DNA of 64,000 nucleotides from Elusimicrobia bacterium GWA2_51_34 (GTDB lineage: Bacteria; Elusimicrobiota; Elusimicrobia; Elusimicrobiales; UBA9959). Within the stretch, counting starts at the first letter, position 1. Every line of letters starts with the position of its first letter. The stretch is taken from the NCBI GenBank assembly GCA_001799565.1, contig MGTS01000012.1:1-64000 (forward strand), written 5' to 3'. Shown here one piece after another: positions 3,001 through 63,319 of this stretch. A program made the position numbers and the translations under genes. Under the pieces are notes generated by a model, which saw nothing but the letters and a program-made list of their open reading frames with translations, was not told the origin of the DNA and ran no database searches.

Positions 3001-5093
3001 TGGCCGATGGCCATATCGGGCTTTATGCCGAACTGTCCTAAAAGGCGGAACATGGCGATATCCGCCGTCATCATGGCGGGCTGCGTCAGCTGCGTCTGTT
3101 TTATGGAGGCCTCGCGTTTTTCCAGTTCCTCTTTTGATTCCTCCGGTTTTGACCAGAGCACTTCGGTCAGGCGCGTATCTATCATTTTTTCAAGTATGGC
3201 GTCGGCTTCGTCAAAGGTGTCCTGCACTATCTTATATTTGCCGGCAAGGTCGCGCATCATGTCCACGTACTGCGAACCCTGTCCCGGAAAGAGAAAACCG
3301 GTTTTAGCGGCGTTTTTGCCGGTTTTAAAGGTGTATACACCCTTCAGTTTTAAGTTAAGCGGCGGCGCAGTCCAAGTCTCCTCTTTGGCGCTTTTCTCCA
3401 AAAAGGCTATTTTTTCTTTCAAATCCGCCGGCGATTTGGCCACTATGGAAACGCCCCACTTTTCGCGCGGTTTTTCGGCTAGGGTATGCGTGAATTGTAC
3501 CAGCGGGTATGTTTCATGCCATTTTGAAACAACTGAAGCGGCAAATTCTTTTGCCTGATCTATCACGCCTTTTTGCGTAGGGGCCGTGAATATAGCGGCT
3601 TCCCCCTGCAGGTGTGAGAACGGAATTTTCGGGTTTTCCCGGATTTCAACGGCGGAACTCTCTTTTTCACCCCCGGCTTTTATGTAAAGCTGGTGGCCGG
3701 GGCCGGTATATTCTTCCATGGTCACATGGAAATTTGCGCCGCCGAAACCGAAAGAAGACACATTGGCCCTGCGCGTTCCCTGTTTTTTCCACTCTTCCTT
3801 TTTCGTAATTACGCGGAACAGGTTTAAGTCTATGCCGGGATTGGGCTTTACGCAGTTAATTGATGGCGGAAGGATTTTGTTGTACAGCGCGAGCGCCGTT
3901 TTGGCTATGCCCACCGCGCCTGCCGCCGCTTTTGTGTGGCCTATCTGGGATTTTATGGAGGTAAGACCTATTTTCCTTGAGCCGTCCATATGCGGCCCGA
4001 ACACTTCTTTAAGCACCTGAACTTCGGCGGCGTCGCCGACCTTGGTGGCGGTGCCGTGCGCCTCCACCATGTCCACATCCGCCGGGGAGTAATCAACCTG
4101 GGAAAAGGCGTTTTCTATGGCTATGCGCTGGCCTTTGGGATTGGGCGCGGTTATTCCCTTGCCCTTTCCATCGGAGGACGCTCCCACGGAATTTATTAAA
4201 GCGTATATTTTATCCCCGTCGCGTACCGCGTCGGAGAGGCGTTTAAGGATATATATGGAGACCGCCTCGGCCATCACAAAGCCGTTCGCCCTTTCGTCAA
4301 ATGTCCAGGAACCGTCAGCGGAAAGCGCTCCTATCTTGCAGAATTTAACATATGCCGGCGGCGACATCATTTCGTCGGCCCCGCCCGCCACCGCCATGTC
4401 AAACTTGCCGGCGCGAAGTCCAAGCACGCAATAATCAAGCGCCGCCAGGGACGAGGCGCAGGCCGCATCCATGGTCATATTCGGGCCGTTGAGGTTAAAA
4501 ACGTTGGCTATACGTCCGGCCGTTACATTTGACAATTCGCCCGGCATGGTGTCCTCGGTTATTTTAAGGATATCTCTGTCTATACCCGCCTCGTATTCGC
4601 TGATTATGGCTTCGCGCTTTTTCCCGTCAAGGGCGGCGAAGGTAGCGGTTTTCTTAAGCAGGTCTTCATTGTAGAATTTGTAAACGCGCAGATCGGTAAA
4701 CTCCTTGCGCATGGCGCCCATGGCGTTGCCGATAACGGCGGCGGCTTTTTTGGGGTCAAAAGGTTTTTTATCGTAGCCGGAATCCTCAAGAGCCATCCTG
4801 GCGGCTTCTATGGTCATCTGCTGCAGGCGGGAAATCTGGGAAGCGGTCTGCGGCGGGATTTTGTATTTTATAGAGTCAAATTTAAAACCTTCAATGAAAC
4901 CGCCTATTTTTGAATAGGTTTTGTCCTGGGTTTTATGGTCTTCGCTGTAATATAGTTTCCAGTCCCAGCGGTCAGCCGGCACTTCACTTACGCAGTTCCT
5001 GCCTTCAAGCACATTCTTCCAAAATTCATCTTTATTCATGGCTTTGGGCGCTATTATGCCCAAACCTATAATCGCTATCTTTTCATTGTTCAT
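1..5093 (-). CDS. KS-AT-KS-ACP megasynthase (PUFA/polyketide synthase-like), C-terminus off the window
   Basis: Type I iterative-type synthase that should build a polyketide or long-chain fatty acyl product. Start ATG at 5093 follows a GAGGTGAAG ribosome site; about 1,698 residues are visible in one frame. KS1 spans about residues 1-460, with active Cys212 in DAACASS and His motifs VEAHGTAT and IGHTKAA. The AT spans about 590-910, with Ser699 in GHSLGEYA. KS2 spans about 985-1530, with Cys1254 in SAACAST and retained His motifs SHETYTP and GHTMGAS. The carrier domain near 1610-1680 reads LGIDTVKQAE, so the residue aligned with the pantetheinylated Ser is Thr1634. Three linker stretches are encoded by heptamer repeats. 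KS-AT order resembles PfaA, but a second complete KS before the ACP differs from PfaA and PfaC. The product is unknown; reductive domains may lie beyond the edge. Confidence 0.9.
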   Translation of the reverse strand, partial: MNNEKIAIIGLGIIAPKAMNKDEFWKNVLEGRNCVSEVPADRWDWKLYYSEDHKTQDKTYSKIGGFIEGFKFDSIKYKIPPQTASQISRLQQMTIEAARMALEDSGYDKKPFDPKKAAAVIGNAMGAMRKEFTDLRVYKFYNEDLLKKTATFAALDGKKREAIISEYEAGIDRDILKITEDTMPGELSNVTAGRIANVFNLNGPNMTMDAACASSLAALDYCVLGLRAGKFDMAVAGGADEMMSPPAYVKFCKIGALSADGSWTFDERANGFVMAEAVSIYILKRLSDAVRDGDKIYALINSVGASSDGKGKGITAPNPKGQRIAIENAFSQVDYSPADVDMVEAHGTATKVGDAAEVQVLKEVFGPHMDGSRKIGLTSIKSQIGHTKAAAGAVGIAKTALALYNKILPPSINCVKPNPGIDLNLFRVITKKEEWKKQGTRRANVSSFGFGGANFHVTMEEYTGPGHQLYIKAGGEKESSAVEIRENPKIPFSHLQGEAAIFTAPTQKGVIDQAKEFAASVVSKWHETYPLVQFTHTLAEKPREKWGVSIVAKSPADLKEKIAFLEKSAKEETWTAPPLNLKLKGVYTFKTGKNAAKTGFLFPGQGSQYVDMMRDLAGKYKIVQDTFDEADAILEKMIDTRLTEVLWSKPEESKEELEKREASIKQTQLTQPAMMTADIAMFRLLGQFGIKPDMAIGHSLGEYAAATAAGIFTFENGLRAVTSRAKEMSKVKVKDPGKMASVAWPHNKVEAELKKIKGYVICANKNCPLQTVIAGEKKAVEQAIELFTSLGVQAQEIAVSHAFHSSIIEPAMGPYRQFLESIPISPSAIPILSNVTADYFPADRQGVYDMLIKQMVSPVEFIKQLERMYSDGVRTFIECGPKRVLSAFAASTFKNKSDITILSSNHPKRGGITEFNDLLANMTALGIPVKWGGKLPVKGGNFFNPYYQNWAIAADAADTRGESQVTSHRSQASDSSAFTPQSSSFNQARFEALGINLNDIAFSGIAAGTPGTWDNLFREHNLDEILEGRNMIEPIPADWRAKQIGKNIIRVVKSPDGNHRIEKIDSVDQAIKLSARKGVFDLEKEFGVPKNIANAMDNTFRMALGAGVLALKDAGLPLIHYYKKTTTGSWLPEKWALPEPLASETGVIFASAFPVMESLIKEISAYFMDKYAGKSPAEMWEVYDSIISRLSGKEDKQALRQWMEQNFKPHHTGEKKDSYTFSQNFLLKAIPIGDSQFAQWVGAKGPSTHISAACASTTQAVHIAESWIRAGKAKRVVVVAADDITNETVNEWTLPGFLASGTATTKENISEAALPFDKRRHGLIVGSAAVALVIEDETLVRARGMKPLARLLLSDSANSAFHVTRLDTGHVASVMEKFVAKIERLYGLDRNHLAAKTLFMSHETYTPARGGSASAEVQALKKAFGSAADKVVVSNVKGFTGHTMGASLEDAVAIRALNTGIVPPIANYKEPDPELAGINLSKGGKYDLEYALRFAAGFGSHMAMSFMQRTYKVGEARIENNNLYQRWLSEISSDTSPELEVVLNTLRVKDKKGAAQKAPQPAISHKPEAISQTEAGNHKGTPKEAYGLKPTAYGNFSEDAVRDEILSMITGKTGYPKDMLELDLDMEADLGIDTVKQAELFAAIREHYSIPRRDNVALKDYPTIRHCIRFVLDETGHKSQVTSHKPETTAKKPVTGD
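312..411. repeat. heptad inverted repeat, word GCCATAA/GCCGTAG, inside the megasynthase ORF
   Basis: The left arm 312-345 repeats GCCGTAGGCTTCAG-like units and the right arm 380-411 repeats CTTATGG units; they are complementary. The centre reads GGGAGTTCCTTT, a variant of the AAGGARYTCCTT apex. It encodes the Lys/Ala/Gly-rich linker between KS2 and the carrier domain. Confidence 0.75.
2180..2210. repeat. heptad tract, word GTCACAG/GTCACAA, inside the megasynthase ORF
   Basis: Four 7-nt units of CTTGTGAC/CCTGTGAC lie in the linker between AT and KS2 and translate as SQVTSHRSQA. Only one arm is evident. Next to it, 2215-2238 is a separate short GC palindrome (CCGCCGCGTCCGCGGCG). Confidence 0.7.
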
Positions 5094-5257
5094 CTCACTT
5101 CACCTCATCTCGTTGATTTGGAAACGGAACACTGGATTTAGGAAATAAAATCAGTCAAGCGGATAAATACCATAAAACCTATTATATTAAAAAACAGCCG
5201 CCTAATCCATATTGTATTTCTTTGGTTTTTGTATTAAGATATACGGGCGGAGGCGTA

Positions 5258-6097
5258 ATGAAGATCAAATTTTGGGGCGCCAGGGGCAGTATTCCTGTGT
5301 GCGGAAAAAAGTATCTTAAATACGGAGGCAGCACCACCTGCCTTGAGCTGCGTTCTCAAAAAAACGAGCTAATTGTTATTGACGCCGGCTCCGGTATCCG
5401 ATTACTTGGCAAGGAGCTGCTGAAAAATCCCCATAACGATTTTAACATGCTTTTTACCCATTCACACTGGGACCATGTAATGGGTTTTCCTTTTTTTGCG
5501 CCGATTTACAGTAAAAAAACCAAAATACGGATCAGGGGCTGCTCTTTTTCCCCGGATTCCGTACGCGAGATTATCGCAAAAACCATGCAGCCGCCCGGTT
5601 TCCCTGTTAAATTTGAGGAAATTTCGGCTAAATTTGAATTTGATTCGGTGTGCGCGGCCGGCTTCGATATCGGGCATGTCAGGATCGTGCCGGTGGAATT
5701 GAGCCACCCAAACCGCGGTTTGGGATATAAGTTCCTTGAAGATGGGCGCTCTTTCGTGTTCCTGACGGATAATGAACTGGGCTTTATACACCCGGATGGA
5801 CGCTCTCCGCGGGATTACGCCGCTTTCTGCCATGGAGCCGATTTGCTGGTGCATGACGCCGATTATAACGACAGTGAATACCCGCGAAGGAAAACCTGGG
5901 GGCATTCCACCTATAGGCAGGCCGTGGATCTGGCGCTGGAGGCCGGTGTTTCGGTTTTGGGCCTTTTTCACCACAATCAGGACCGCAGCGACGCGGAAGT
6001 GGACGCCGCCGTGGCCGAATGTTCCGGAATATTCAGGGGCAGGGGCTCAAAGACTAAATGCGTCGCTATTAAGGAAGGACAGGTGATAGAACTATAA
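5258..6097 (+). CDS. MBL-fold metal-dependent hydrolase
   Basis: Metallo-beta-lactamase-fold hydrolase, 279 residues, probably cytoplasmic (no signal peptide). The Zn-binding signature THSHWDH lies near residue 69, a conserved Asp lies in LLVHDADYND, and late His residues lie in WGHSTY and LFHHNQ. The opening KFWGARGSIP and the overall spacing recall the cyclic-nucleotide or phosphodiesterase-like branch (PhnP/RNase Z relatives), but the substrate cannot be read from sequence. I chose ATG 5258 over an upstream start at 5222 because GGAGG lies five bases before it and homologues begin at this beta-strand. It is divergent from the megasynthase. Confidence 0.85.
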   Translation: MKIKFWGARGSIPVCGKKYLKYGGSTTCLELRSQKNELIVIDAGSGIRLLGKELLKNPHNDFNMLFTHSHWDHVMGFPFFAPIYSKKTKIRIRGCSFSPDSVREIIAKTMQPPGFPVKFEEISAKFEFDSVCAAGFDIGHVRIVPVELSHPNRGLGYKFLEDGRSFVFLTDNELGFIHPDGRSPRDYAAFCHGADLLVHDADYNDSEYPRRKTWGHSTYRQAVDLALEAGVSVLGLFHHNQDRSDAEVDAAVAECSGIFRGRGSKTKCVAIKEGQVIEL

Positions 6098-50077: not shown

Positions 50078-50431
50078 TTATTTTACATTCAGCACGTCTG
50101 TGATGGCCTTTTCCAGGCTTTCCTTCGGCAGAACGCCGGTTACCATCTGCGGCTGTCCGGTCGCCGGTATTAAAAGCATGGTGGGTATGCTTTGTATGCC
50201 GAACAGCGATGAAAGCTGCTGCTCCTCATCGGTGTTTACCTTGTAAATATCCAGCTTCCCGGCATATTTATCAGCCAACTCGGCCAGCACTGGTGAAAGC
50301 ATTTTGCACGGCCCGCACCAGTCTGCGTAGAAATCCACGATGCAGGGTTTATCCCCGGCGAATTTCCATTCTTTGTTGTTCTCAAAATTAAAAACCTTTT
50401 CCTTAAACGACTCAAGTTTCAGATTTTCCAT
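50078..50431 (-). CDS. trxA: thioredoxin
   Basis: 117 residues. Active site ADWCGPCKM near residue 40, cis-Pro in QSIPTMLLI. GGAGG precedes ATG 50431. It is isolated from the thioredoxin reductase-like gene at 55703, but that enzyme is its plausible partner. Confidence 0.95.
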   Translation of the reverse strand: MENLKLESFKEKVFNFENNKEWKFAGDKPCIVDFYADWCGPCKMLSPVLAELADKYAGKLDIYKVNTDEEQQLSSLFGIQSIPTMLLIPATGQPQMVTGVLPKESLEKAITDVLNVK

Positions 50432-50631: not shown

Positions 50632-51984
50632 ATGACCAGTAAAACACTATTTGTCGCCATGTTTTTTCTTATGCCTTTATCTGCCAACGCGTCTTCGCTT
50701 ACGCTGGAGGCGGCGGTAGAGCAAGGTCTTAAGGCCGATAACATATTAAAGGAAGAAGTCGCGCATGTTAGCGGCGCTAAGGCCGGCTTGAATCAGGCTC
50801 AGTTGTCCAGACTTGGCGGATTCAAATTGAAAGGAATGTATACTGACGGAACTGATCCGGTTTATGCGTTCGCTACGGCCATGAAACAGGGTACGTTCAG
50901 CATGGCCTCTATGTCTACAATAAACGATCCGGCGGTCACACGCAATTATATGGCTGGAATAGAGGCCGGGATTCCACTCTTTACCGGCTTTGCCATTTCA
51001 AATGCGGTAAAGATTGGAAAGATGGGAAGTGAAGCCGCGCAAAACGGGTATGAGCGGGCGCGCGCCGGTATAACTTTCAAAATAACTTACCAATGGCTGA
51101 CAGTCTTGCTGCGCCGGCGATTGGCGGAATTGGCCTTTGACAGCGTAAAGAGCGCCGAAACCGAATTGAAAACAGCTCAGATGCTTAAAGACAAGGGCAT
51201 GGTGCTTGGGTCGGATTACTACGGCGCGCAATCCATACTTTCCACGCTGCGCGGTTACCGCTTAAACTGGGATAAGGCGCTGACTTTGGAAAAAGAAAAA
51301 CTGGCCATAGCGCTGGGGCTTGACCCGGCCTCGGATATCGATGCTTCGGGAGAGCTGTATGAGGCCGTCTATGCCGAAAAGACCAGGGAGGAGCTGACTG
51401 CCGCGGCTAACGGCGGCCGTAATGATATAAAGGCTCTGGATAAAATGGCCGCTATCTCCAAAACCACGGAGATTATGCAGAAAAACTCCCTGCTTCCGGT
51501 CATAGAGGCCTTCGGTTCATGGGAAACCAACTCCGAAACCCTTTCAGATTTCAAAGCCAATCGTCTGCTGGGTTTGCGCCTGACCATATCGTTGGGCGAC
51601 CCCGCCTATTTCGCTAAAAAAGAAACAGCCAGGGCTGAAGCCTCAATGGCCGCCAGTCGTCTGGATGAGGCGCGCAAACAAGTTTCTGTTGAAGTCGCCG
51701 GGGCACTGAACAACTATAACGCCGCCAGGGAAAGCCTGCCGGTGGCGAAAGAAACCATGGAAAAGGCCAGACAGTCGCTCGAACTTTTCCGCCCCCTTTA
51801 CCGGCAGGGCCGGCAGAGCGTGCTGGAAGTCCTTCGTGCCCAGTCCTCCGTCCTTCAGGCCGAAGCCGCCTACTATGAAACCCTTTATAAGCTGAACCTC
51901 TTTCACGCCCAGACGCTTCTTGCATCCGAGACACTGGACACGGCGGCAGTGGCGGATATGTCGAATATGCTTAGTCGGAGATGA
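50632..51984 (+). CDS. TolC-family outer-membrane efflux protein
   Basis: 450 residues with a signal peptide (SKTLFVAMFFLMPLSANA). It shows long alternating heptad helices and the repeat organisation of OEP/TolC channels (SLTLEAAVEQGLKAD, ALNNYNAARESLPVAKETMEKARQ). Followed after 17 nt by the RND pump, to which it should couple. GGAGGCAG precedes ATG 50632. Confidence 0.88.
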   Translation: MTSKTLFVAMFFLMPLSANASSLTLEAAVEQGLKADNILKEEVAHVSGAKAGLNQAQLSRLGGFKLKGMYTDGTDPVYAFATAMKQGTFSMASMSTINDPAVTRNYMAGIEAGIPLFTGFAISNAVKIGKMGSEAAQNGYERARAGITFKITYQWLTVLLRRRLAELAFDSVKSAETELKTAQMLKDKGMVLGSDYYGAQSILSTLRGYRLNWDKALTLEKEKLAIALGLDPASDIDASGELYEAVYAEKTREELTAAANGGRNDIKALDKMAAISKTTEIMQKNSLLPVIEAFGSWETNSETLSDFKANRLLGLRLTISLGDPAYFAKKETARAEASMAASRLDEARKQVSVEVAGALNNYNAARESLPVAKETMEKARQSLELFRPLYRQGRQSVLEVLRAQSSVLQAEAAYYETLYKLNLFHAQTLLASETLDTAAVADMSNMLSRR

Positions 51985-52001
51985 TCAACGGAGAAACTAC
52001 A

Positions 52002-55000
52002 ATGCAGAACCAAATACCATACAAATACGGAATGGCGGGGCGCATGGCCGGGGCATTTATAAATTCCCGCCTCACCCCCATACTTATAATTACTTTTATG
52101 CTGCTTGGTGTCTTCTCAACTTTCAAGCTGCCGCGCGAAGAGGAACCGCAGATAAACGTGCCGATGTTCGATATTATTGTCCCGTTCTACGGAGCGGCGC
52201 CGAAAGAGATAGAAAAGCATTTAGTGGAAGTGGGCGAGCGCAAACTATGGGAAATTCCGGGGGTGGAATATATTTACTCGATGGCCCAGCCTAATTTTGC
52301 CATGTTCACCGTGCGCTTCAAGGTAGGAACTATCCCCGAAACCGCCGCGAACCTCATTTACACAAAAACTTTTGATAACAAGGATCTGTTTCCCGGCGGC
52401 GCGGGGGAGCCTTTGATAAAGTTCCGCGCGATAGATGACGTCCCGGTGCTGGCTTTAACTCTCTGGGGCGAGGGCAAAGATGATTATGAACTTCGCCGCA
52501 CGGCCGCCCGGATACAAACCGAGATCAACGCGGTAGGGAATGTTTCAGAGACGCGTATTATAGGCGGGCATAAACGCCAGTTCATAGTCCACTTCGATCC
52601 GGCCGCCATAGCGCGGCACCGTATTACCCCCCCGATGCTTGCCGGTATAATAAAAATGTCCAACGCCCGCCTGCCGGCCGGGCATTACAACCAGGGTGAC
52701 ACTAAACTGCTGGCCGAAACCGACGCTTTTATACGCAGCGCTGACGACCTTAAGAACATAATAGTTGGAGTTTTTGACGGCCGGCCTGTTAAGCTCTCTG
52801 AGGTGGCGGATATAAAAGACGGCCCGGACGAGCAAGAACGCTCCGTCGCAATGCTGCAGGGCCCGGCATCTGCCGTAAAATCCGCCGGAGAACGGCCTGC
52901 AGTAACCTTGTCGGTTGCAAAACGCCGCGGAGCTAATGCCACGGAAGTGTCGCGCGCCGTATTGGCGAAAGTGGAAGCCATGAAAGGCCGCGAGATACCG
53001 GACGGCACGAACATCGCGGTCACCCGCAACTACGGCGAAACCGCAAAGGCCAAATCGGACGAACTTATTTACCATATGCTGCTGGCTACGTTATCGGTAA
53101 CCCTGTTGATCGCGCTGACTTTGGGTTTGCGCGAAGCCGCTGTGGTGCTGGTGGCTATTCCCGTAACGCTCGCGCTGACCATGCTTGTTTACTATCTGTA
53201 CGGATACACGCTAAACCGTATTACGCTCTTTGCGCTGATATTTTCCATCGGTATTCTTGTAGACGACGCCATAGTAGTGGTGGAAAATATAAACCGCCAC
53301 TGCGGTATGAACCGGAAGAACTCACTCTACAGGAACATTCTTAACGCTGTGGACGAGGTCGGCAATCCTACGATACTCGCCACCTGGACCGTAATAGCCT
53401 CCATATTGCCGATGGCTTTCGTCAGCGGTATGATGGGGCCATACATGCGTCCTATCCCCATTGGCGCTTCCGTGGCGATGCTATTTTCTCTTGGAGTCGC
53501 TTTCGCCTTTACTCCCTGGCTTTATGCGAAGGTGGTACAACGCTGGCCTCTTAAGCGCTGCGGGAACGAACGCGAAGGCGTATTGGACGGGCTATACCGA
53601 AGTTTGATGAAAAAACTGATATATGTGCCCGCCAATGGGAAGAAATTCCTTGTTTTCACGGCTGGGCTGCTTGCCGCCGTGCTGGCCATGGTGGCCTTCA
53701 GACTGGTTATCTTCAAGACTTTGCCTTTTGACAATAAAAACGAATTCCAGGTTATTATAAACATGCCAGAGAGTTCATCATTGTCGCGCACGCAACGGGC
53801 CGCAGGCGAAATGGCTGAATATCTGGCCGGCATTCCGGAAGTCAGGGACCTGCAGGTTTACGCCGGAGCGTCCGCGCCTTACAACTTCAATGGCCTTGTG
53901 CGGCACTACTTCCTGCGCAGCGAGCCTTATCAGGCAGACATCCAAGTTAACCTGTCCGATAAAAGCGAAAGAAAACGTCAGAGCCACGATATCGCGGTAG
54001 CGGTGCGCGCCCCCCTCAAGAAAATAGCCGACAGTTACGGCGCCCGCCTGCAGGTGGCGGAAGTCCCGCCCGGTCCCCCGGTAATGGCTACCATGCTGGT
54101 GGAAGTATTTGACCCCAATCCTAAAAACCAGAAAGCGCTGGCGGAAGAAATAAAGAACATTCTCAGAAATACCGAGGGGATAGTGGACGTGGACTCCTAT
54201 ATTCCGGAAGATCAGCCCATAACGCGGCTTTTGGTTGACAGGCAGAAAGCCACGTTGAACGGTGTAGCGGCCTCCGAAATAGTCCAGACGGCGGCGCTAT
54301 CGCTGTCCGGGTCGGATATTGACTCGGCTCACGTGGAAGATGAGAATGAGGCGGTAGATATACGCCTGCGCCTTTCTCCTGAAAAGCGGCGGCAGCTTTC
54401 AACGATGAAGGAAATTAAATTCTTCTCCCCCAACGGCACCATTATTCCTATGGCCAGTTTCGTTACGGCGGAGAACGGCCTGGAGAACCAGCCGATATAC
54501 CACAAGAACCTGCAGCGCGTTATCCATGTAACGGCGGATATTGCCGGCGGCACTGAAAGCCCGGTATATGCGGTACTGGACCTGAAAGCTAAAATAGACG
54601 CGCTTTCCAAATCGCGCGGCGCGGAGATCAAGCAGTATTTTACCCGGCAGCCGGTAAGCGCATCAGAAACAGCGATAAAATGGGATGGTGAGTGGCAGAT
54701 CACCTATGAGGTATTCCGGGACCTGGGTCTGGCTTTTGCAATGGTATTATTGCTGATCTATATACTGGTTGTGGCCTGGTTCGAGGATTTCCTGACTCCG
54801 CTGATAATCATGGCGGCCATCCCTATGGCGCTGATAGGCATTATTCCCGCGCATTGGGGGATGGGGGCGTTTTTCACAGCTACTTCTATGATAGGTTTCA
54901 TCGCTTCAGCCGGTATCGTGGTGCGCAATTCCATCATACTTGTGGACTTTATAAACCTCAAAATTCGCGACGGGATGCCGCTGGCCGAGGCTGTTATAGA

Positions 55001-55268
55001 GGCCGGAGTGGTCCGTTTCCGCCCGATGCTGCTTACGGCTCTGGCCGTGATCGTGGGCGCAGGAGTTATCCTGTTCGACCCTATCTTCCAGGGACTGGCG
55101 ATATCGCTGATAGCGGGACAGATAGCGGCTACGCTGCTGTCGCGGGTGGCGGTGCCGGTGTTGTATTACCTGGCGTTCAGGAACAAGCTGAAGGACGCGC
55201 ATATTCGCAAGCCGGAACCAAAACCCGGAGAGTTGACAGATGAAATACTGGGCTATACCGGAGAATAA
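52002..55268 (+). CDS. RND efflux transporter permease subunit
   Basis: 1,088 residues, the standard RND size: 12 membrane helices in two halves and two large periplasmic loops. The proton-relay helix 4 carries the Asp pair in GILVDDAIVVVENINRH (near 420). The periplasmic entry REEEPQINVPMFDIIVPFYGAAP is typical of the HAE/HME-type group. ATG 52002 is chosen over 51981 because ACGGAG precedes it. No membrane-fusion (adaptor) gene lies next to it, although tripartite pumps need one. Confidence 0.92.
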   Translation: MQNQIPYKYGMAGRMAGAFINSRLTPILIITFMLLGVFSTFKLPREEEPQINVPMFDIIVPFYGAAPKEIEKHLVEVGERKLWEIPGVEYIYSMAQPNFAMFTVRFKVGTIPETAANLIYTKTFDNKDLFPGGAGEPLIKFRAIDDVPVLALTLWGEGKDDYELRRTAARIQTEINAVGNVSETRIIGGHKRQFIVHFDPAAIARHRITPPMLAGIIKMSNARLPAGHYNQGDTKLLAETDAFIRSADDLKNIIVGVFDGRPVKLSEVADIKDGPDEQERSVAMLQGPASAVKSAGERPAVTLSVAKRRGANATEVSRAVLAKVEAMKGREIPDGTNIAVTRNYGETAKAKSDELIYHMLLATLSVTLLIALTLGLREAAVVLVAIPVTLALTMLVYYLYGYTLNRITLFALIFSIGILVDDAIVVVENINRHCGMNRKNSLYRNILNAVDEVGNPTILATWTVIASILPMAFVSGMMGPYMRPIPIGASVAMLFSLGVAFAFTPWLYAKVVQRWPLKRCGNEREGVLDGLYRSLMKKLIYVPANGKKFLVFTAGLLAAVLAMVAFRLVIFKTLPFDNKNEFQVIINMPESSSLSRTQRAAGEMAEYLAGIPEVRDLQVYAGASAPYNFNGLVRHYFLRSEPYQADIQVNLSDKSERKRQSHDIAVAVRAPLKKIADSYGARLQVAEVPPGPPVMATMLVEVFDPNPKNQKALAEEIKNILRNTEGIVDVDSYIPEDQPITRLLVDRQKATLNGVAASEIVQTAALSLSGSDIDSAHVEDENEAVDIRLRLSPEKRRQLSTMKEIKFFSPNGTIIPMASFVTAENGLENQPIYHKNLQRVIHVTADIAGGTESPVYAVLDLKAKIDALSKSRGAEIKQYFTRQPVSASETAIKWDGEWQITYEVFRDLGLAFAMVLLLIYILVVAWFEDFLTPLIIMAAIPMALIGIIPAHWGMGAFFTATSMIGFIASAGIVVRNSIILVDFINLKIRDGMPLAEAVIEAGVVRFRPMLLTALAVIVGAGVILFDPIFQGLAISLIAGQIAATLLSRVAVPVLYYLAFRNKLKDAHIRKPEPKPGELTDEILGYTGE

Positions 55269-55284
55269 TTACTGTGGAGGATAT

Positions 55285-55476
55285 ATGACAATAAACGAGG
55301 CATTAAGACTGCTGGCCGGAGTAATTGTGCTGCTGAGCGTAGGGCTGGCGGTTTACGTGAACATTAACTTCCTGTGGCTGACGGCCTTTGCAGGCGCGAA
55401 TCTGCTGCAATCGGCCTTTACAAAGTGGTGTCCGGCCATAGGGGTTTTTAAGAAGATCGGTCTGAAGGATTGCTGA
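55285..55476 (+). CDS. DUF2892-like small membrane protein
   Basis: 63 residues: two hydrophobic helices (LRLLAGVIVLLSVGLAVYV, FLWLTAFAGANLLQSAF) and a CPAIGVFKKIGLK tail as in DUF2892/YgaP membrane domains. TGGAGG precedes ATG 55285; it follows the RND gene by 16 nt and shares its operon. Confidence 0.8.
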   Translation: MTINEALRLLAGVIVLLSVGLAVYVNINFLWLTAFAGANLLQSAFTKWCPAIGVFKKIGLKDC

Positions 55477-55477
55477 T

Positions 55478-55690
55478 ATGAAAATTACCGGCATTCTGGC
55501 TGCTGCGCTGCTGACCGCGGCCTTCATGGTTCTGGGCAAGATCCGCAGCCAGGATTTTTATCTCGCTGCGCTTGTATCCGGATTTGTTTTTTTTCGTCTG
55601 GCTACCGGCAGTTCCTGCCCCTTGGCATGGCTGTTAAGCAAATTAGGGGCGAAAGGCTTATCCTGTCCCTCGGATGGCAAAATGAATTAA
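55478..55690 (+). CDS. second small two-helix membrane protein
   Basis: 70 residues, one base after the preceding stop. Two helices and a CPLAWLLSKLG tail like the CPAIGVFKKIG tail of its neighbour; probably a diverged relative of DUF2892. Function unknown; linked to the efflux operon by spacing. Confidence 0.65.
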   Translation: MKITGILAAALLTAAFMVLGKIRSQDFYLAALVSGFVFFRLATGSSCPLAWLLSKLGAKGLSCPSDGKMN

Positions 55691-55702
55691 TACTGATTAT
55701 TA

Positions 55703-56614
55703 TTATCTTTTTACGGCTCCGCCGGCTTTTGCATATTCAGCAGCGTTGATGCCTGCCACGCAGCCCTCGCCTATCGCTTTCGCTATCTGGAAAGGCGCGC
55801 CGCAAATATCCCCGGCGGCGTATATCCCCGCGATATTTGTCCGTTGTTTTTTATCCGTCTTTATATAATCAAATTTCTCGCCTTCAAGCTCCACACCCAG
55901 TTGAGCGGCCAGTTCCATGGCGCCCTTGGCCCCCAGTTCGATAAAGATACCGTCCGTAGGATATTCAGTGGAATCTGCAAACTTTATTCCTGTAACTTTC
56001 GAGTTGCTGCCCAGGATCTCCACTATCTTAGCGCCTTCCAGCATCTTTACGCCGCTGTCGGCCAGCTGTTGCAGAAGTTTTTCATTAACCCCCGTCTTGT
56101 CGTAGATAAGCGTTACTTCACTGGCATAGGCGGTAAGCAACACGGCGCCAGAGGCGGCTGCGCTGCCGCTTCCGGCCATCGCCACTTTCTTCCCCCTGTA
56201 AAAATTGGCATCACATTCCACGCAGTAACTTACGCCTTTCCCGTAGTACTCCTTTTCCCCTTTCACATTAAGCGTATTGCGCTTTATTCCCAGCGCAAAT
56301 ATGATGCTTTTGGCCGAGATTGCCGTGCCGTTTTCCGTGTTGAGATCGAAAATGTCCCCATTATTCCTGACCTTGGTTATATCCTCTTCAAAAAACACGG
56401 CTCCAAATCTCTCCGCTTGTTTTTTGCCGTCTAAAAGCATCTCCCTGCCGCGAGATACGCCCTGCATACAGCAGTAGTTCTCCACATGCGCGGATTCAAG
56501 ACTGCTATGGGCTATTTTTCCGAACACCGCGGTTTTTGTTTTTTTCCTGGCGGCGTGTATGGCGGACTGGATGCCCGCCGGCCCCGAGCCTATTATAATC
56601 ACATCGGTTTCCAT
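55703..56614 (-). CDS. thioredoxin reductase-like flavoprotein lacking the NADPH motif
   Basis: 303 residues. FAD site IIGSGPAGIQSAI at the start, redox site YCVECDANF (CVEC, near residue 132) and C-terminal FAD motif GIYAAGDICG. The second nucleotide fold reads MAGSGSAAASGA, and the usual HRRxxxRA is replaced by IYDKTGVNEKLL, so canonical NADPH contacts are missing. This resembles ferredoxin- or F420-dependent thioredoxin reductases. Last gene of the DUF134-NifX-sigma operon. Confidence 0.85.
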   Translation of the reverse strand: METDVIIIGSGPAGIQSAIHAARKKTKTAVFGKIAHSSLESAHVENYCCMQGVSRGREMLLDGKKQAERFGAVFFEEDITKVRNNGDIFDLNTENGTAISAKSIIFALGIKRNTLNVKGEKEYYGKGVSYCVECDANFYRGKKVAMAGSGSAAASGAVLLTAYASEVTLIYDKTGVNEKLLQQLADSGVKMLEGAKIVEILGSNSKVTGIKFADSTEYPTDGIFIELGAKGAMELAAQLGVELEGEKFDYIKTDKKQRTNIAGIYAAGDICGAPFQIAKAIGEGCVAGINAAEYAKAGGAVKR

Positions 56615-56630
56615 TTTTGTCTCCCGCGCT

Positions 56631-57179
56631 CTATTGGCGGAAATCAGCCAGTTGTTCTTTAAGAAGATTCCTCGCGCGATGCAGTCTGGTTTTCAGGGCG
56701 GCGATAGATATTTTGATGCGCTTCGCCGCCTCGGCATTGGGCAGACCCTCTATATCGCAAAGTGTTATTGCTATACGATAACCGGGTGGCAGAGATCGCA
56801 ATGCCTTGCTTACCGCCAGGGAAAGCTCGTTTTTCAGCGCATTTTCATTTACGCCGGAGCGGGAAGGATATCCTTTGCCGGTTTCATCAGGCATCCCGGA
56901 GCGGGCCTCGGTTTTCACTTTGCGGAAGCGCTGCCAGCAGTTATTCGCGGCGATGCGATAAAGCCAGGTGCCGAAAGCGGCGTTAGCCTTGAAAGAATTT
57001 ATGTGTTTAAGCGCGGAAACAAATGTCTCCTGCGCCACGTCGTCCGCCTCTGAAGGCATCCTTGCGCAGACGCTGGAAGCGATGCCGTAAAGCCGGTCCT
57101 TATACTTCAGGACCAGCGTCTCAAAGGCTTTGTTATCGCCATTGCGGGCGCGTGTTATAATCTCGCTTTCTTCCATCAT
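56631..57179 (-). CDS. ECF-family RNA polymerase sigma factor
   Basis: 182 residues: sigma2 region (AFETLVLKYKDRLYGIA, ADDVAQETFVSALKH, TWLYRIAANNCW), a linker, and sigma4 HTH (ALRSLPPGYRIAITLCDIEG, LPNAEAAKRIKISIAALKTRLHRA, residues in two adjacent parts). No anti-sigma factor gene adjoins; the flanking genes are a NifX-like protein and a flavin thioredoxin reductase. ATG 57176 is equally possible. Confidence 0.93.
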   Translation of the reverse strand: MMEESEIITRARNGDNKAFETLVLKYKDRLYGIASSVCARMPSEADDVAQETFVSALKHINSFKANAAFGTWLYRIAANNCWQRFRKVKTEARSGMPDETGKGYPSRSGVNENALKNELSLAVSKALRSLPPGYRIAITLCDIEGLPNAEAAKRIKISIAALKTRLHRARNLLKEQLADFRQ

Positions 57180-57186
57180 TTGAGAC

Positions 57187-57561
57187 TTAATGGCATCCGT
57201 GTCCGCCGTGATGTCCGCAGGCGTGCATGGGATCAGCTTCCTTAAGTTTGCCGGACTTTACAGCTTTTACGGCTTCTTCAACCGTAGCTGCCGGGCTGAG
57301 GTAAACTTTTATGCCTGCGGCTCTCAGGCCGTTTATAGCGCCAGCTCCCAGGCCGCCGGCAACCACCGCATCGGGCTTGGCATTGCCCACAGCCTTGAGC
57401 GGGTTACACATACCGTGCTCGTGATCAAGGTTTCCGTTATCTATGATATCGCATTTAAGCGTTTCGGTATCGCAAACCGTGAAATATGGAGCGCTGCCAA
57501 AATGCCCGTAAACCTCCGCCTTCAATCCGTTTTTTGTTTCAGTCGGTATACAGATTTTCAT
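57187..57561 (-). CDS. NifX/NifB-type iron-molybdenum cofactor-binding family protein
   Basis: 124 residues. CIPTETKNGLKAEVYGHFGSAP opening, VVAGGLGAGAINGLRAAGIKV core and a C-terminal metal-rich tail (MHACGHHGGHGCH). Outside nitrogen fixation such proteins are thought to bind Fe-S or Mo/Fe clusters. No nif genes are here. It overlaps DUF134 by 4 nt, a common pairing. Confidence 0.9.
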   Translation of the reverse strand: MKICIPTETKNGLKAEVYGHFGSAPYFTVCDTETLKCDIIDNGNLDHEHGMCNPLKAVGNAKPDAVVAGGLGAGAINGLRAAGIKVYLSPAATVEEAVKAVKSGKLKEADPMHACGHHGGHGCH

Positions 57562-57890
57562 TTATGTTCTCCTCCACGGGGTTCCCGTATCAGTTCCACC
57601 GGGCCGCCTTCTATTTTAAGAGCCTTGCCGTTTACTACGGCATCGGCCAGCTTCCTTCTGGCGGAAGCGAGTATATTGCCGAAAGTCTGCCTGGATACTT
57701 TCATGGCCGAGGAGGCCCTTTCCTGATCTTTATTGTCCAGTTCGGAATACTTTAACGCCTGAAATTCGTCCAGCTGCAGGATTATCTCTTCCAGTCCGCA
57801 AAGCGGGACTGCGCGTGGTTTGAAATAATAAGCGCGCGGCTCCGATGTCACCTTCCTGCATTTAAATGGTCTGGGCATGGTTATTGGCAT
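57558..57890 (-). CDS. DUF134 family HTH protein
   Basis: 110 residues. Starts RPFKCRKV, ends with a sigma4-like HTH (ALKYSELDNKDQERASSAMKVSRQTFGNILASARRKL). DUF134 proteins are presumed regulators and often stand beside NifX-like genes. The ATG at 57890 lies in a perfect palindrome; ATG 57878 (RPFKCRK start) is an alternative that leaves the palindrome as an operator in the leader. Confidence 0.88.
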   Translation of the reverse strand: MPITMPRPFKCRKVTSEPRAYYFKPRAVPLCGLEEIILQLDEFQALKYSELDNKDQERASSAMKVSRQTFGNILASARRKLADAVVNGKALKIEGGPVELIREPRGGEHK

Positions 57891-57900
57891 ATGCCAATAA
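57881..57900. promoter_or_regulatory. perfect 20-bp palindrome at the DUF134 start
   Basis: TTATTGGCATATGCCAATAA is fully self-complementary, centred at the DUF134 ATG. The symmetry and location suggest an operator for a dimeric HTH protein, possibly autoregulation by DUF134. Confidence 0.65.
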
Positions 57901-57992
57901 ACACATCATAAACAACTTGACCGCCTTCAGTCAACAGCACTGAAAAAATATTCGTATTTTATATCCCCCCCAAAATTGTAAACTTATTCTAG

Positions 57993-61751: not shown

Positions 61752-62918
61752 TCACTCCAGATCATGGCTGTGCGGACCTATGCCGAAACTCATCTGTACC
61801 CAGCCCTCATTGGCTTTTTCGCCGTAAAGGTTCTTATGCCTGTATTGCACTCTGGCATGCGTAGTTTCGGTGAGGCGCCGGGTCAACATAGCCGAATATA
61901 CTCTTTCGTAGGAAATAACTGGCATGGCGTTTTCGGAATAGTCGAATCTTACTCCGGCGTCCCAGTATTTGCTCCATCTGTAGTTCACCAGCGAATATCC
62001 TCCATCCCGGTTGAGATTGCCGGCCGGCACTTTTCGGGCCAGATGGAACCATTCGTTCTGGAAAGTCCAGCGCTTATAAGCTGAAGGCCAGTGTTTAAGG
62101 GCCAGGTCGACTCCGGTTATTTTGACATTATCCTGATGATGCGTATAATGGCTGCCTTTGCCCTTCAGCGCGTTCAAACCGACCATCATCTCGGTTTTGG
62201 GACCAAAAGCGAAAGATGTGAGCAGGCGTCCGGTATAAACCTTGTCCGCCACTGAGAATTCATCGCTTTCAACTATAATCGGAACCGTAACCGTGGAGCC
62301 GGTTATATCCAGTATCTCCGCCGTATTTCCCTCTCCAACATCGTGATGATGTTCCGGTACGGTCCATGCGCCGCCCTGGATTTCGGCATAAAAAGGCAAC
62401 GGTATAAGATATGAAAGGGCGAGTCCTTGCCCTACAAGGCCATGGTCGCCGAAGAAGTTTGTGATGACAGAAGGCTGGTCTACCATGGGCCGGTGATGAC
62501 TGTGCGATTTATTCAGGCGTCCGAAGTCAACATGTATCTTACCAGCTTGTGCGGACAATCCCGGTAAAACTTCAAGGAAACTCATCTTTGCCTCGCATAT
62601 TTCGGCTTCATATCCATCGTAGTGCTTGTGAATGGCCAGGAACACATCCGCTTTCATTTTTGGATAGATATAGCCCTGAAAGGCGGTTTCCACCTCGTCG
62701 AACTCAAGCTTGTTCCTTGATTCATCCGTTTTGTCGTCGCTTATATAGCCGTTAAAAACGCCTATCACGCTTATATCCGGCAGGTTAAGAGGCGTTCCGC
62801 GCATACCCTGCGGTGGAGGGGCGGTCTCTATGATTTTGGTAGTGAATCCCTCCGTTTCCTGCGCTATTGCGCAAGGGGTAAGGGCAGTAAATAATAATAA
62901 AATCATGAATCTTTTCAT
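61752..62918 (-). CDS. His-rich outer-membrane porin-like protein of the zinc operon
   Basis: 388 residues with signal peptide (KRFMILLLFTALTPCAIA). C-terminal aromatic beta-strand pattern of a barrel and family-like stretches KIHVDFGRLNKSHSHHRPMVDQP and FFGDHGLVGQG. Several His clusters (HSHHRP, PEHHHDVG, HYTHHQD, GPHSHD) fit metal binding. Located 33 nt before znuA, it probably brings zinc across the outer membrane; this is inference. Confidence 0.75.
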   Translation of the reverse strand: MKRFMILLLFTALTPCAIAQETEGFTTKIIETAPPPQGMRGTPLNLPDISVIGVFNGYISDDKTDESRNKLEFDEVETAFQGYIYPKMKADVFLAIHKHYDGYEAEICEAKMSFLEVLPGLSAQAGKIHVDFGRLNKSHSHHRPMVDQPSVITNFFGDHGLVGQGLALSYLIPLPFYAEIQGGAWTVPEHHHDVGEGNTAEILDITGSTVTVPIIVESDEFSVADKVYTGRLLTSFAFGPKTEMMVGLNALKGKGSHYTHHQDNVKITGVDLALKHWPSAYKRWTFQNEWFHLARKVPAGNLNRDGGYSLVNYRWSKYWDAGVRFDYSENAMPVISYERVYSAMLTRRLTETTHARVQYRHKNLYGEKANEGWVQMSFGIGPHSHDLE

Positions 62919-63010: not shown

Positions 63011-63319
63011 TTACGCGGAGAACGGCGGGGCGCGGCTGGAACAAATAAAAACAGCAATTCGTTTTGCGAACGGCAATCTGCAAATCAAATTTATGCGGCT
63101 GCAATTGTCGGGATGAATTAAAGACTCGTAGTCACCGCTGGGGCTCACTTCAAGGGAGCCAAAGACAGCGCAGATCTGGCAATCATTGTCCGCCGGATTA
63201 TGAGCGGACTCTGTTATATGAAAAATCCAGGCCCCGCCCACGACAGCTGCTACCGCGAAACAGACCATGGTTCTTCGTAATTCTGGGGATCTCATTAAGG
63301 ATATTCTATAAATTCTCAT
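63011..63319 (-). CDS. small Cys/His protein with membrane helix (DUF2946-like)
   Basis: 102 residues: one hydrophobic helix (MVCFAVAAVVGGAWIFHI) followed by ADNDCQICAVFGS and a spaced Cys pair further on. The helix-plus-CxxC layout resembles small periplasmic proteins found with metal transporters. It overlaps the end of the M23 gene by 14 nt. Confidence 0.6.
   Translation of the reverse strand: MRIYRISLMRSPELRRTMVCFAVAAVVGGAWIFHITESAHNPADNDCQICAVFGSLEVSPSGDYESLIHPDNCSRINLICRLPFAKRIAVFICSSRAPPFSA

Follow-up and report, generated by a model that had tools for sequence, protein, structure and literature searches.

Local autorepressors such as IscR and NsrR let the state of a cluster set the expression of cluster and redox genes. 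Some ECF sigma factors have no anti-sigma gene next door and are controlled by transcription, so that their activity follows the amount made. In the orp operons of Desulfovibrio vulgaris, palindromic operators overlap the sigma-70 promoter of the regulator gene (PMC3897727), and the isolated Di-Nase (NifX-type) domain of the MrpORP protein binds Fe–S clusters (PMC6345978). FFTR and DDOR are pyridine-nucleotide-independent CxxC flavoproteins that are related to TrxB and have a degraded NADPH site (PMC9025218, PMC8469568). The locus described here can be set against each of these. It lies in the window, by which we mean the whole 64,000-nucleotide stretch of contig MGTS01000012.1 of Elusimicrobia bacterium GWA2_51_34 that was analysed.

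At the core of the locus, four tightly spaced genes follow one another on the minus strand: DUF134, a NifX-like gene, an ECF sigma factor gene and a thioredoxin reductase (TrxR) gene (Table 1). The DUF134 and NifX genes overlap by 4 nt (57558-57561), and spacers of 7 nt and 16 nt separate NifX from ECF and ECF from TrxR. The initial annotation had read these genes as a one-strand operon headed by a perfect palindrome. Pfam and NCBIfam matches, together with the gaps of −4, 7 and 16 nt, establish that the operon is real, and its genes are probably co-transcribed; the palindrome is indeed perfect, and no such palindrome arose in 100 shuffles of the window. The DUF134 protein matches PF02001 at 74.7 bits, well above the Pfam gathering score of 27. 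Its likely start is 57878 (MPRPFKCRK...) rather than 57890, where a longer ORF opens, and the palindrome is therefore upstream of the gene and not within the ORF.

Table 1. Features of the locus, with positions in the window.
Feature	Positions	Strand	Basis or remark
Thioredoxin gene, predicted ECF target	50078..50431	-	117 aa, WCGPC; PF00085; adjoins ECF in relatives
Predicted ECF promoter of thioredoxin, TGAATCC-N15-GCATCTAA	50486..50515	-	motif
Predicted ECF promoter of OEP-RND, TGAATCC-N14-GCATCTAA	50575..50603	+	motif
Outer-membrane efflux protein gene (OEP/TolC type), predicted ECF target	50632..51984	+	PF02321
RND efflux transporter gene, predicted ECF target	51981..55268	+	PF00873, 486 bits
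Two small membrane proteins 3' of the RND gene	55240..55690	+	first YgaP-like, PF11127; both kept beside RND in loci L283 and L284
Thioredoxin-reductase-like flavoprotein gene	55703..56614	-	303 aa; CVEC site, HRRxxxR lost
ECF sigma factor gene	56631..57179	-	182 aa; without adjacent anti-sigma
NifX-like gene	57187..57561	-	124 aa, His/Cys-rich tail; PF02579; predicted cluster-binding sensor partner of DUF134
DUF134 gene	57558..57878	-	106 aa; PF02001; predicted repressor, sigma-region-4-like HTH
Predicted DUF134 operator TTATTGGCATATGCCAATAA	57881..57900	.	perfect palindrome; expected over transcription start
-10 element TATGAT	57905..57910	-	18-nt spacer; ends 4 nt before operator; relatives show equal geometry
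-35 element TTGACT of operon promoter	57929..57934	-	sequence; TTGAC upstream of operator kept in relatives

The palindrome accompanies DUF134 genes far beyond this locus. Within the 2.6-Mb genome of the window, matches with up to three mismatches occur in two places only, each directly 5' of a DUF134 gene. The sequence GTTATTGGCATATGCCAATAAC is present at the equivalent position in relatives of the window, and DUF134 genes across the phylum are likewise preceded by the operator, at varying distances from the start codon. Among 39 DUF134 genes of the phylum that were picked by protein, 38 carry a copy (≤3 mismatches) within 150 nt upstream, whereas a single one of 679 control windows does. When GTDB was scanned for the pattern TATTRGCATATGCYAATA on DNA only, with no use of protein information, at least 115 stretches were returned; the matches listed span Vibrionaceae, Omnitrophota, Clostridia, Chlorobi, Ignavibacteria, Planctomycetota and others. 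DUF134 starts 4–98 nt downstream of the palindrome in 68 of the 115 matches listed, where chance would yield about 0.01 such coincidences under the rough assumption of one DUF134 gene per 3-Mb genome. NifX starts within 300 nt downstream in 13 of these 115, DUF134 or NifX is found elsewhere in the same stretch in 10 further ones, and neither is present in the retrieved stretch in 24. Mrp-like ATPases lie behind the palindrome at no fewer than one locus devoid of DUF134 and NifX (L188) and at several sites where DUF134 or NifX is more distant; other palindromes with neither gene nearby look like chance matches. The number of operator sites per genome is one or two in the 28 genomes examined, in which a reversed control pattern found none. 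From its position and conservation, we predict that the palindrome is the operator of DUF134, and the window's DUF134 gene has this operator in common with other DUF134 genes. At another locus (L175, around 4900-5326), the palindrome is located 5' of genes for a YgaP-like membrane protein and a 510-aa sulfide:quinone oxidoreductase-like protein, so the regulon may have a connection to sulfide.

The AlphaFold (AF2) model of DUF134 (pLDDT 81.5) contains an HTH. Foldseek places this HTH closest to domains of sigma region 4 (probability about 1.0, with weak E-values of 0.04–0.6), and fused DUF134 homologues give Pfam Sigma70_r4 matches; a PDB sequence search with DUF134 returned no useful match. 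The predicted fold of DUF134 is a sigma-region-4-like HTH. The NifX-like protein matches Nitro_FeMo-Co (PF02579) at 66.2 bits, against a Pfam gathering score of 26.3, and is related to the solved NifB, MTH1175 and ORP structures. The DUF134–NifX gene pair recurs in relatives and is adjacent in many phyla, and in four Firmicutes DUF134 and PF02579 (NifX) form a single fused protein. In relatives, NifU_N, porin-like and ZnuA/B genes mostly come after the pair, and on enterobacterial plasmids it occurs with PaaI and Dps genes; DUF134 genes are found in about 180 to nearly 200 plasmid records, mostly enterobacterial. By analogy with the Di-Nase domain, the window's NifX is predicted to bind a cluster, and it may act as a cluster sensor that modulates DUF134.

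Three further loci show the neighbourhoods in which these genes are found. Both Klebsiella plasmids that were read (L289 and L290) carry a DUF134–NifX–PaaI–Dps–ArsR–FAD oxidoreductase cassette with two degenerate tandem operators upstream. In the window, genes for a porin-like protein (61752-62918) and a small secreted-type protein (63011-63319), no Pfam match, belong to a set that travels with ZnuA/ZnuB and DUF134–NifX in many relatives. The second DUF134 operon of the window's genome (contig C12, about 80.6–83.3 kb; L056:16627-19344) has the operator TTATTGGCATAAGCCAATAA; DUF134 is followed in order by genes for phosphotransacetylase, Fur, NifX, a pair of ferredoxin-type ParA ATPases and NifU_N, and Mrp comes later.

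The ECF sigma factor consists of regions 2 and 4 only, matching Sigma70_r2 at 57 bits (residues 22–88) and r4_2 at 54 bits (residues 122–171) within its 182 residues. Neither in the window nor in the inspected relatives does an anti-sigma gene adjoin it; for the window, this had been noted from the sequence at the outset. Copies with at least 66% identity are present in 10 of the 59 family genomes, its own included, and the orthologues of relatives often have thioredoxin, OEP-RND and YgaP-like genes as neighbours. The divergent region between the window's thioredoxin gene and its OEP-RND genes contains the motif TGAATCC-N14/15-GCATCTAA twice, once in each direction. All 12 occurrences of this motif in the 59 genomes are upstream of thioredoxin or OEP-RND genes, and it is found in 6 of the 10 genomes with an ECF orthologue versus 2 of the 49 without (Fisher p = 1e-4). 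The exact motif is missing from the other 4 of the 10 ECF-bearing genomes, and it stands before thioredoxin in two genomes where no ECF orthologue reaches 66% identity. The −35 element before the pump is altered in two genomes, G020 (ECF 66% identical) and G023 (54%), where TGAAAC replaces TGAATCC. We interpret the motif as an ECF-type promoter, and the ECF sigma factor is likely to recognize it.

Two observations concern the surroundings of these genes. No membrane-fusion (HlyD-type) gene lies between the two genes of the OEP-RND operon (50632-55268) or directly behind them, an uncommon arrangement for an RND pump. In one relative (L033, contig C59 of G025), the ECF orthologue is part of an arsenic island, with thioredoxin and ferredoxin genes downstream; by eye, the island contains ArsM-like, ArsC-like, ACR3-like and ArsR-like genes, and an ACR3-like gene is also present on the window's own contig (L057).

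The TrxR-like protein matches Pyr_redox_2 at 128 bits, and its best NCBIfam match, TRX_reduct, reaches 228 bits, below the equivalog cut-off of 343. Its best PDB match is 5nii, which we take to be the Gloeobacter DDOR. The protein retains the CVEC site, the FAD motif GSGPAG and a GSGSAA (GxGxxA) motif, and YDKTGVNEK replaces HRRxxxR; the housekeeping TrxR of the same genome keeps HRRDQLRA. An earlier description of the enzyme as devoid of NADPH motifs is thus correct for HRRxxxR but not for GxGxxA. Lacking HRRxxxR, the protein departs from the motif set of the NADPH-dependent TrxB enzymes (CxxC, GxGxxG, GxGxxA and HRRxxxR), and in keeping GSGSAA it departs from the motif definition of FFTR and DDOR, which is the absence of GxGxxA/G (PMC9025218). 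Retention of GxGxxA and loss of HRRxxxR make NADH or another donor possible. The closest match in the 60 nearest relatives searched is at 38%, with no orthologue above this value, so the enzyme was probably acquired or has diverged fast, and its role is read from its position only.

We favour, as the probable reading of the locus, a two-tier switch in which a DUF134 autorepressor with a NifX sensor controls an ECF sigma factor that in turn serves thioredoxin and OEP-RND efflux. In the first tier, a DUF134 dimer would repress its own operon: its sigma-region-4-like HTH would bind TTATTRGCATATGCYAATAA, a site adjoining the −10 box and expected to span the transcription start. The NifX-like protein would act as the sensor subunit of DUF134, and its gain or loss of a metal or an Fe–S (or Mo-type) cluster would alter the grip of DUF134 on the operator. 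In the second tier, derepression would lead to synthesis of the ECF sigma factor, which could do without an anti-sigma, since transcription would determine how much of it is made. Together with core polymerase, it would read the TGAATCC-N14/15-GCATCTAA promoters of thioredoxin and the OEP-RND efflux operon. Thioredoxin may be recharged by the TrxR-like enzyme, presumably encoded on the same transcript as the ECF sigma factor, and the electrons may come from a donor that is not NADPH. The presumed output is thiol repair and efflux under cluster or metal stress.

The connection between the two tiers was assessed in the 59 family genomes. According to the initial annotation, its reading would be refuted if the four-gene set occurred together in no other genome. 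The exact set is indeed found in no other family genome, but three of its genes, DUF134, NifX and ECF, do recur in one run in two of them: on one strand, G302 has the order operator–DUF134–NifX–NifU_N–ECF–thioredoxin, and G239 has DUF134–NifX–NifU_N-like–...–ZnuA–ZnuB–ECF. In the other family genomes the two parts are apart, and the coupling is therefore recurrent but optional. Since ECF orthologues in several relatives are located outside DUF134 operons, the link between the tiers is recent or optional. An alternative is that DUF134–NifX and ECF–TrxR are unrelated, uncoupled cassettes that were joined by rearrangement in a metal-gene island. The mostly separate occurrence of the halves in the family, the NifU_N, porin-like and ZnuA/B genes that follow DUF134–NifX, and the position of the relatives' ECF genes beside thioredoxin or RND would all fit such a history. 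Against it stand the tight spacing of the genes in the window and the presence of DUF134–NifX–...–ECF in two more genomes in differing arrangements, once with thioredoxin directly 3' of ECF. We consider this alternative rather unlikely, if worth keeping in view.

The geometry of the promoters bears on how DUF134 acts within the proposed switch. A sigma-70-like promoter is located at or near the operator in 58 of 68 sites versus 18% of shuffles, a contrast that is somewhat overstated because the shuffle control destroys the fixed operator sequence. Most commonly, TTGACA lies about 25 nt upstream of the operator and the −10 element ends no more than 4 nt from it; a bound dimer would therefore cover +1. 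An operator that abuts a sigma-70 promoter is as expected of a repressor site, which suggests repression rather than activation. DUF134 could instead be an activator or a nucleoid-like factor that binds the palindrome and recruits polymerase, given that its HTH resembles sigma region 4, which contacts −35 boxes, and that at some loci (for example in Vibrionaceae) the best-scoring promoter sits downstream of the start of the site. However, this is difficult to reconcile with the good TTGACA and closely placed −10 of most sites, where the dimer would sit over +1, and we regard it as distinctly improbable.

The initial annotation had also proposed a redox- or cluster-controlled sigma circuit, one reading of which is that NifX or TrxR acts directly on ECF as an anti-sigma. 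The circuit finds support in outline, but control appears to be exerted at DUF134 and the palindrome, and nothing points to an action of NifX or TrxR on the sigma factor. The genes do adjoin in the window, with no anti-sigma gene nearby; however, most relatives have the ECF gene without NifX or TrxR alongside, and NifX stays with DUF134, to which it can be fused. We consider an anti-sigma role of NifX or TrxR very unlikely. Finally, we reject as scarcely credible that the palindrome works in RNA, as a hairpin over the message start (an attenuator or ribosome-access switch): although in the window it would fall in a very short 5' leader, directly 5' of a start codon with no clear Shine–Dalgarno sequence, its distance to the start codon ranges from 4 to 98 nt, the site may overlap the −10 box and hence lie partly outside the transcript, and 25 of 81 sites have half-site letters that are unable to pair in RNA (A..C), such frequent hairpin-breaking substitutions indicating that recognition most probably takes place on DNA.

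A search of the literature accessible without subscription found, judged by title and abstract, no paper on the function or operator of DUF134. In searches with operator sub-strings, neither TTGGCATATGCCAA nor TGGCATATGCCA appeared among the matches listed, and those papers were unrelated. The predicted DUF134 regulator family with its conserved operator is apparently undescribed, and the first gene together with its palindrome represents the strongest discovery of this analysis. It proposes a function and a DNA target for a family to which no role has been assigned and which occurs in many phyla and on plasmids, and a sensor role for stand-alone NifX-like proteins; an orphan ECF sigma factor becomes part of a testable cascade. 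With an operator this short and conserved, the regulon is open to reading in any genome, and binding can be tested directly with a short labelled duplex. On a broader view, for and against which we find the balance about even, DUF134 and NifX would constitute an undescribed, phylum-spanning regulator family that reads the status of metal-sulfur clusters via NifX/Di-Nase and represses from an operator that is universal and centred on GCATATGC; the Elusimicrobiota version would have captured an ECF sigma factor, extending its reach to thioredoxin and RND efflux.

Of the known systems, the orp operons resemble the one described here in having NifX/Di-Nase-type proteins with Mrp-type ATPases and palindromic operators at a sigma-70 promoter of the regulator gene. 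Palindromes of the window's type also precede Mrp-like ATPases in several loci, and the second DUF134 operon of the same genome combines NifX, ParA-type ATPases and NifU_N with a later Mrp. However, regulation in Desulfovibrio is not by DUF134 but by DVU2106, a sigma-54 activator that works with IHF, and no ECF sigma factor has been described in that system. MrpORP itself is an Mrp P-loop ATPase fused to Di-Nase and has sigma-54 promoters, features that the locus lacks: the window's NifX stands alone, reaches 27 bits against an MrpORP cut-off of 450, and its promoter looks like a sigma-70 type. The TrxR-like protein differs from FFTR and DDOR in keeping GxGxxA while being without HRRxxxR. The proposed DUF134 switch resembles IscR and NsrR in its local autorepression controlled by cluster state, but its HTH is sigma-region-4-like and not of the Rrf2 fold, and the part that would bind the cluster is a NifX protein, either on its own or fused to DUF134. 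Compared to other ECF sigma factors without an anti-sigma, the controller here would be an uncharacterised repressor, DUF134.
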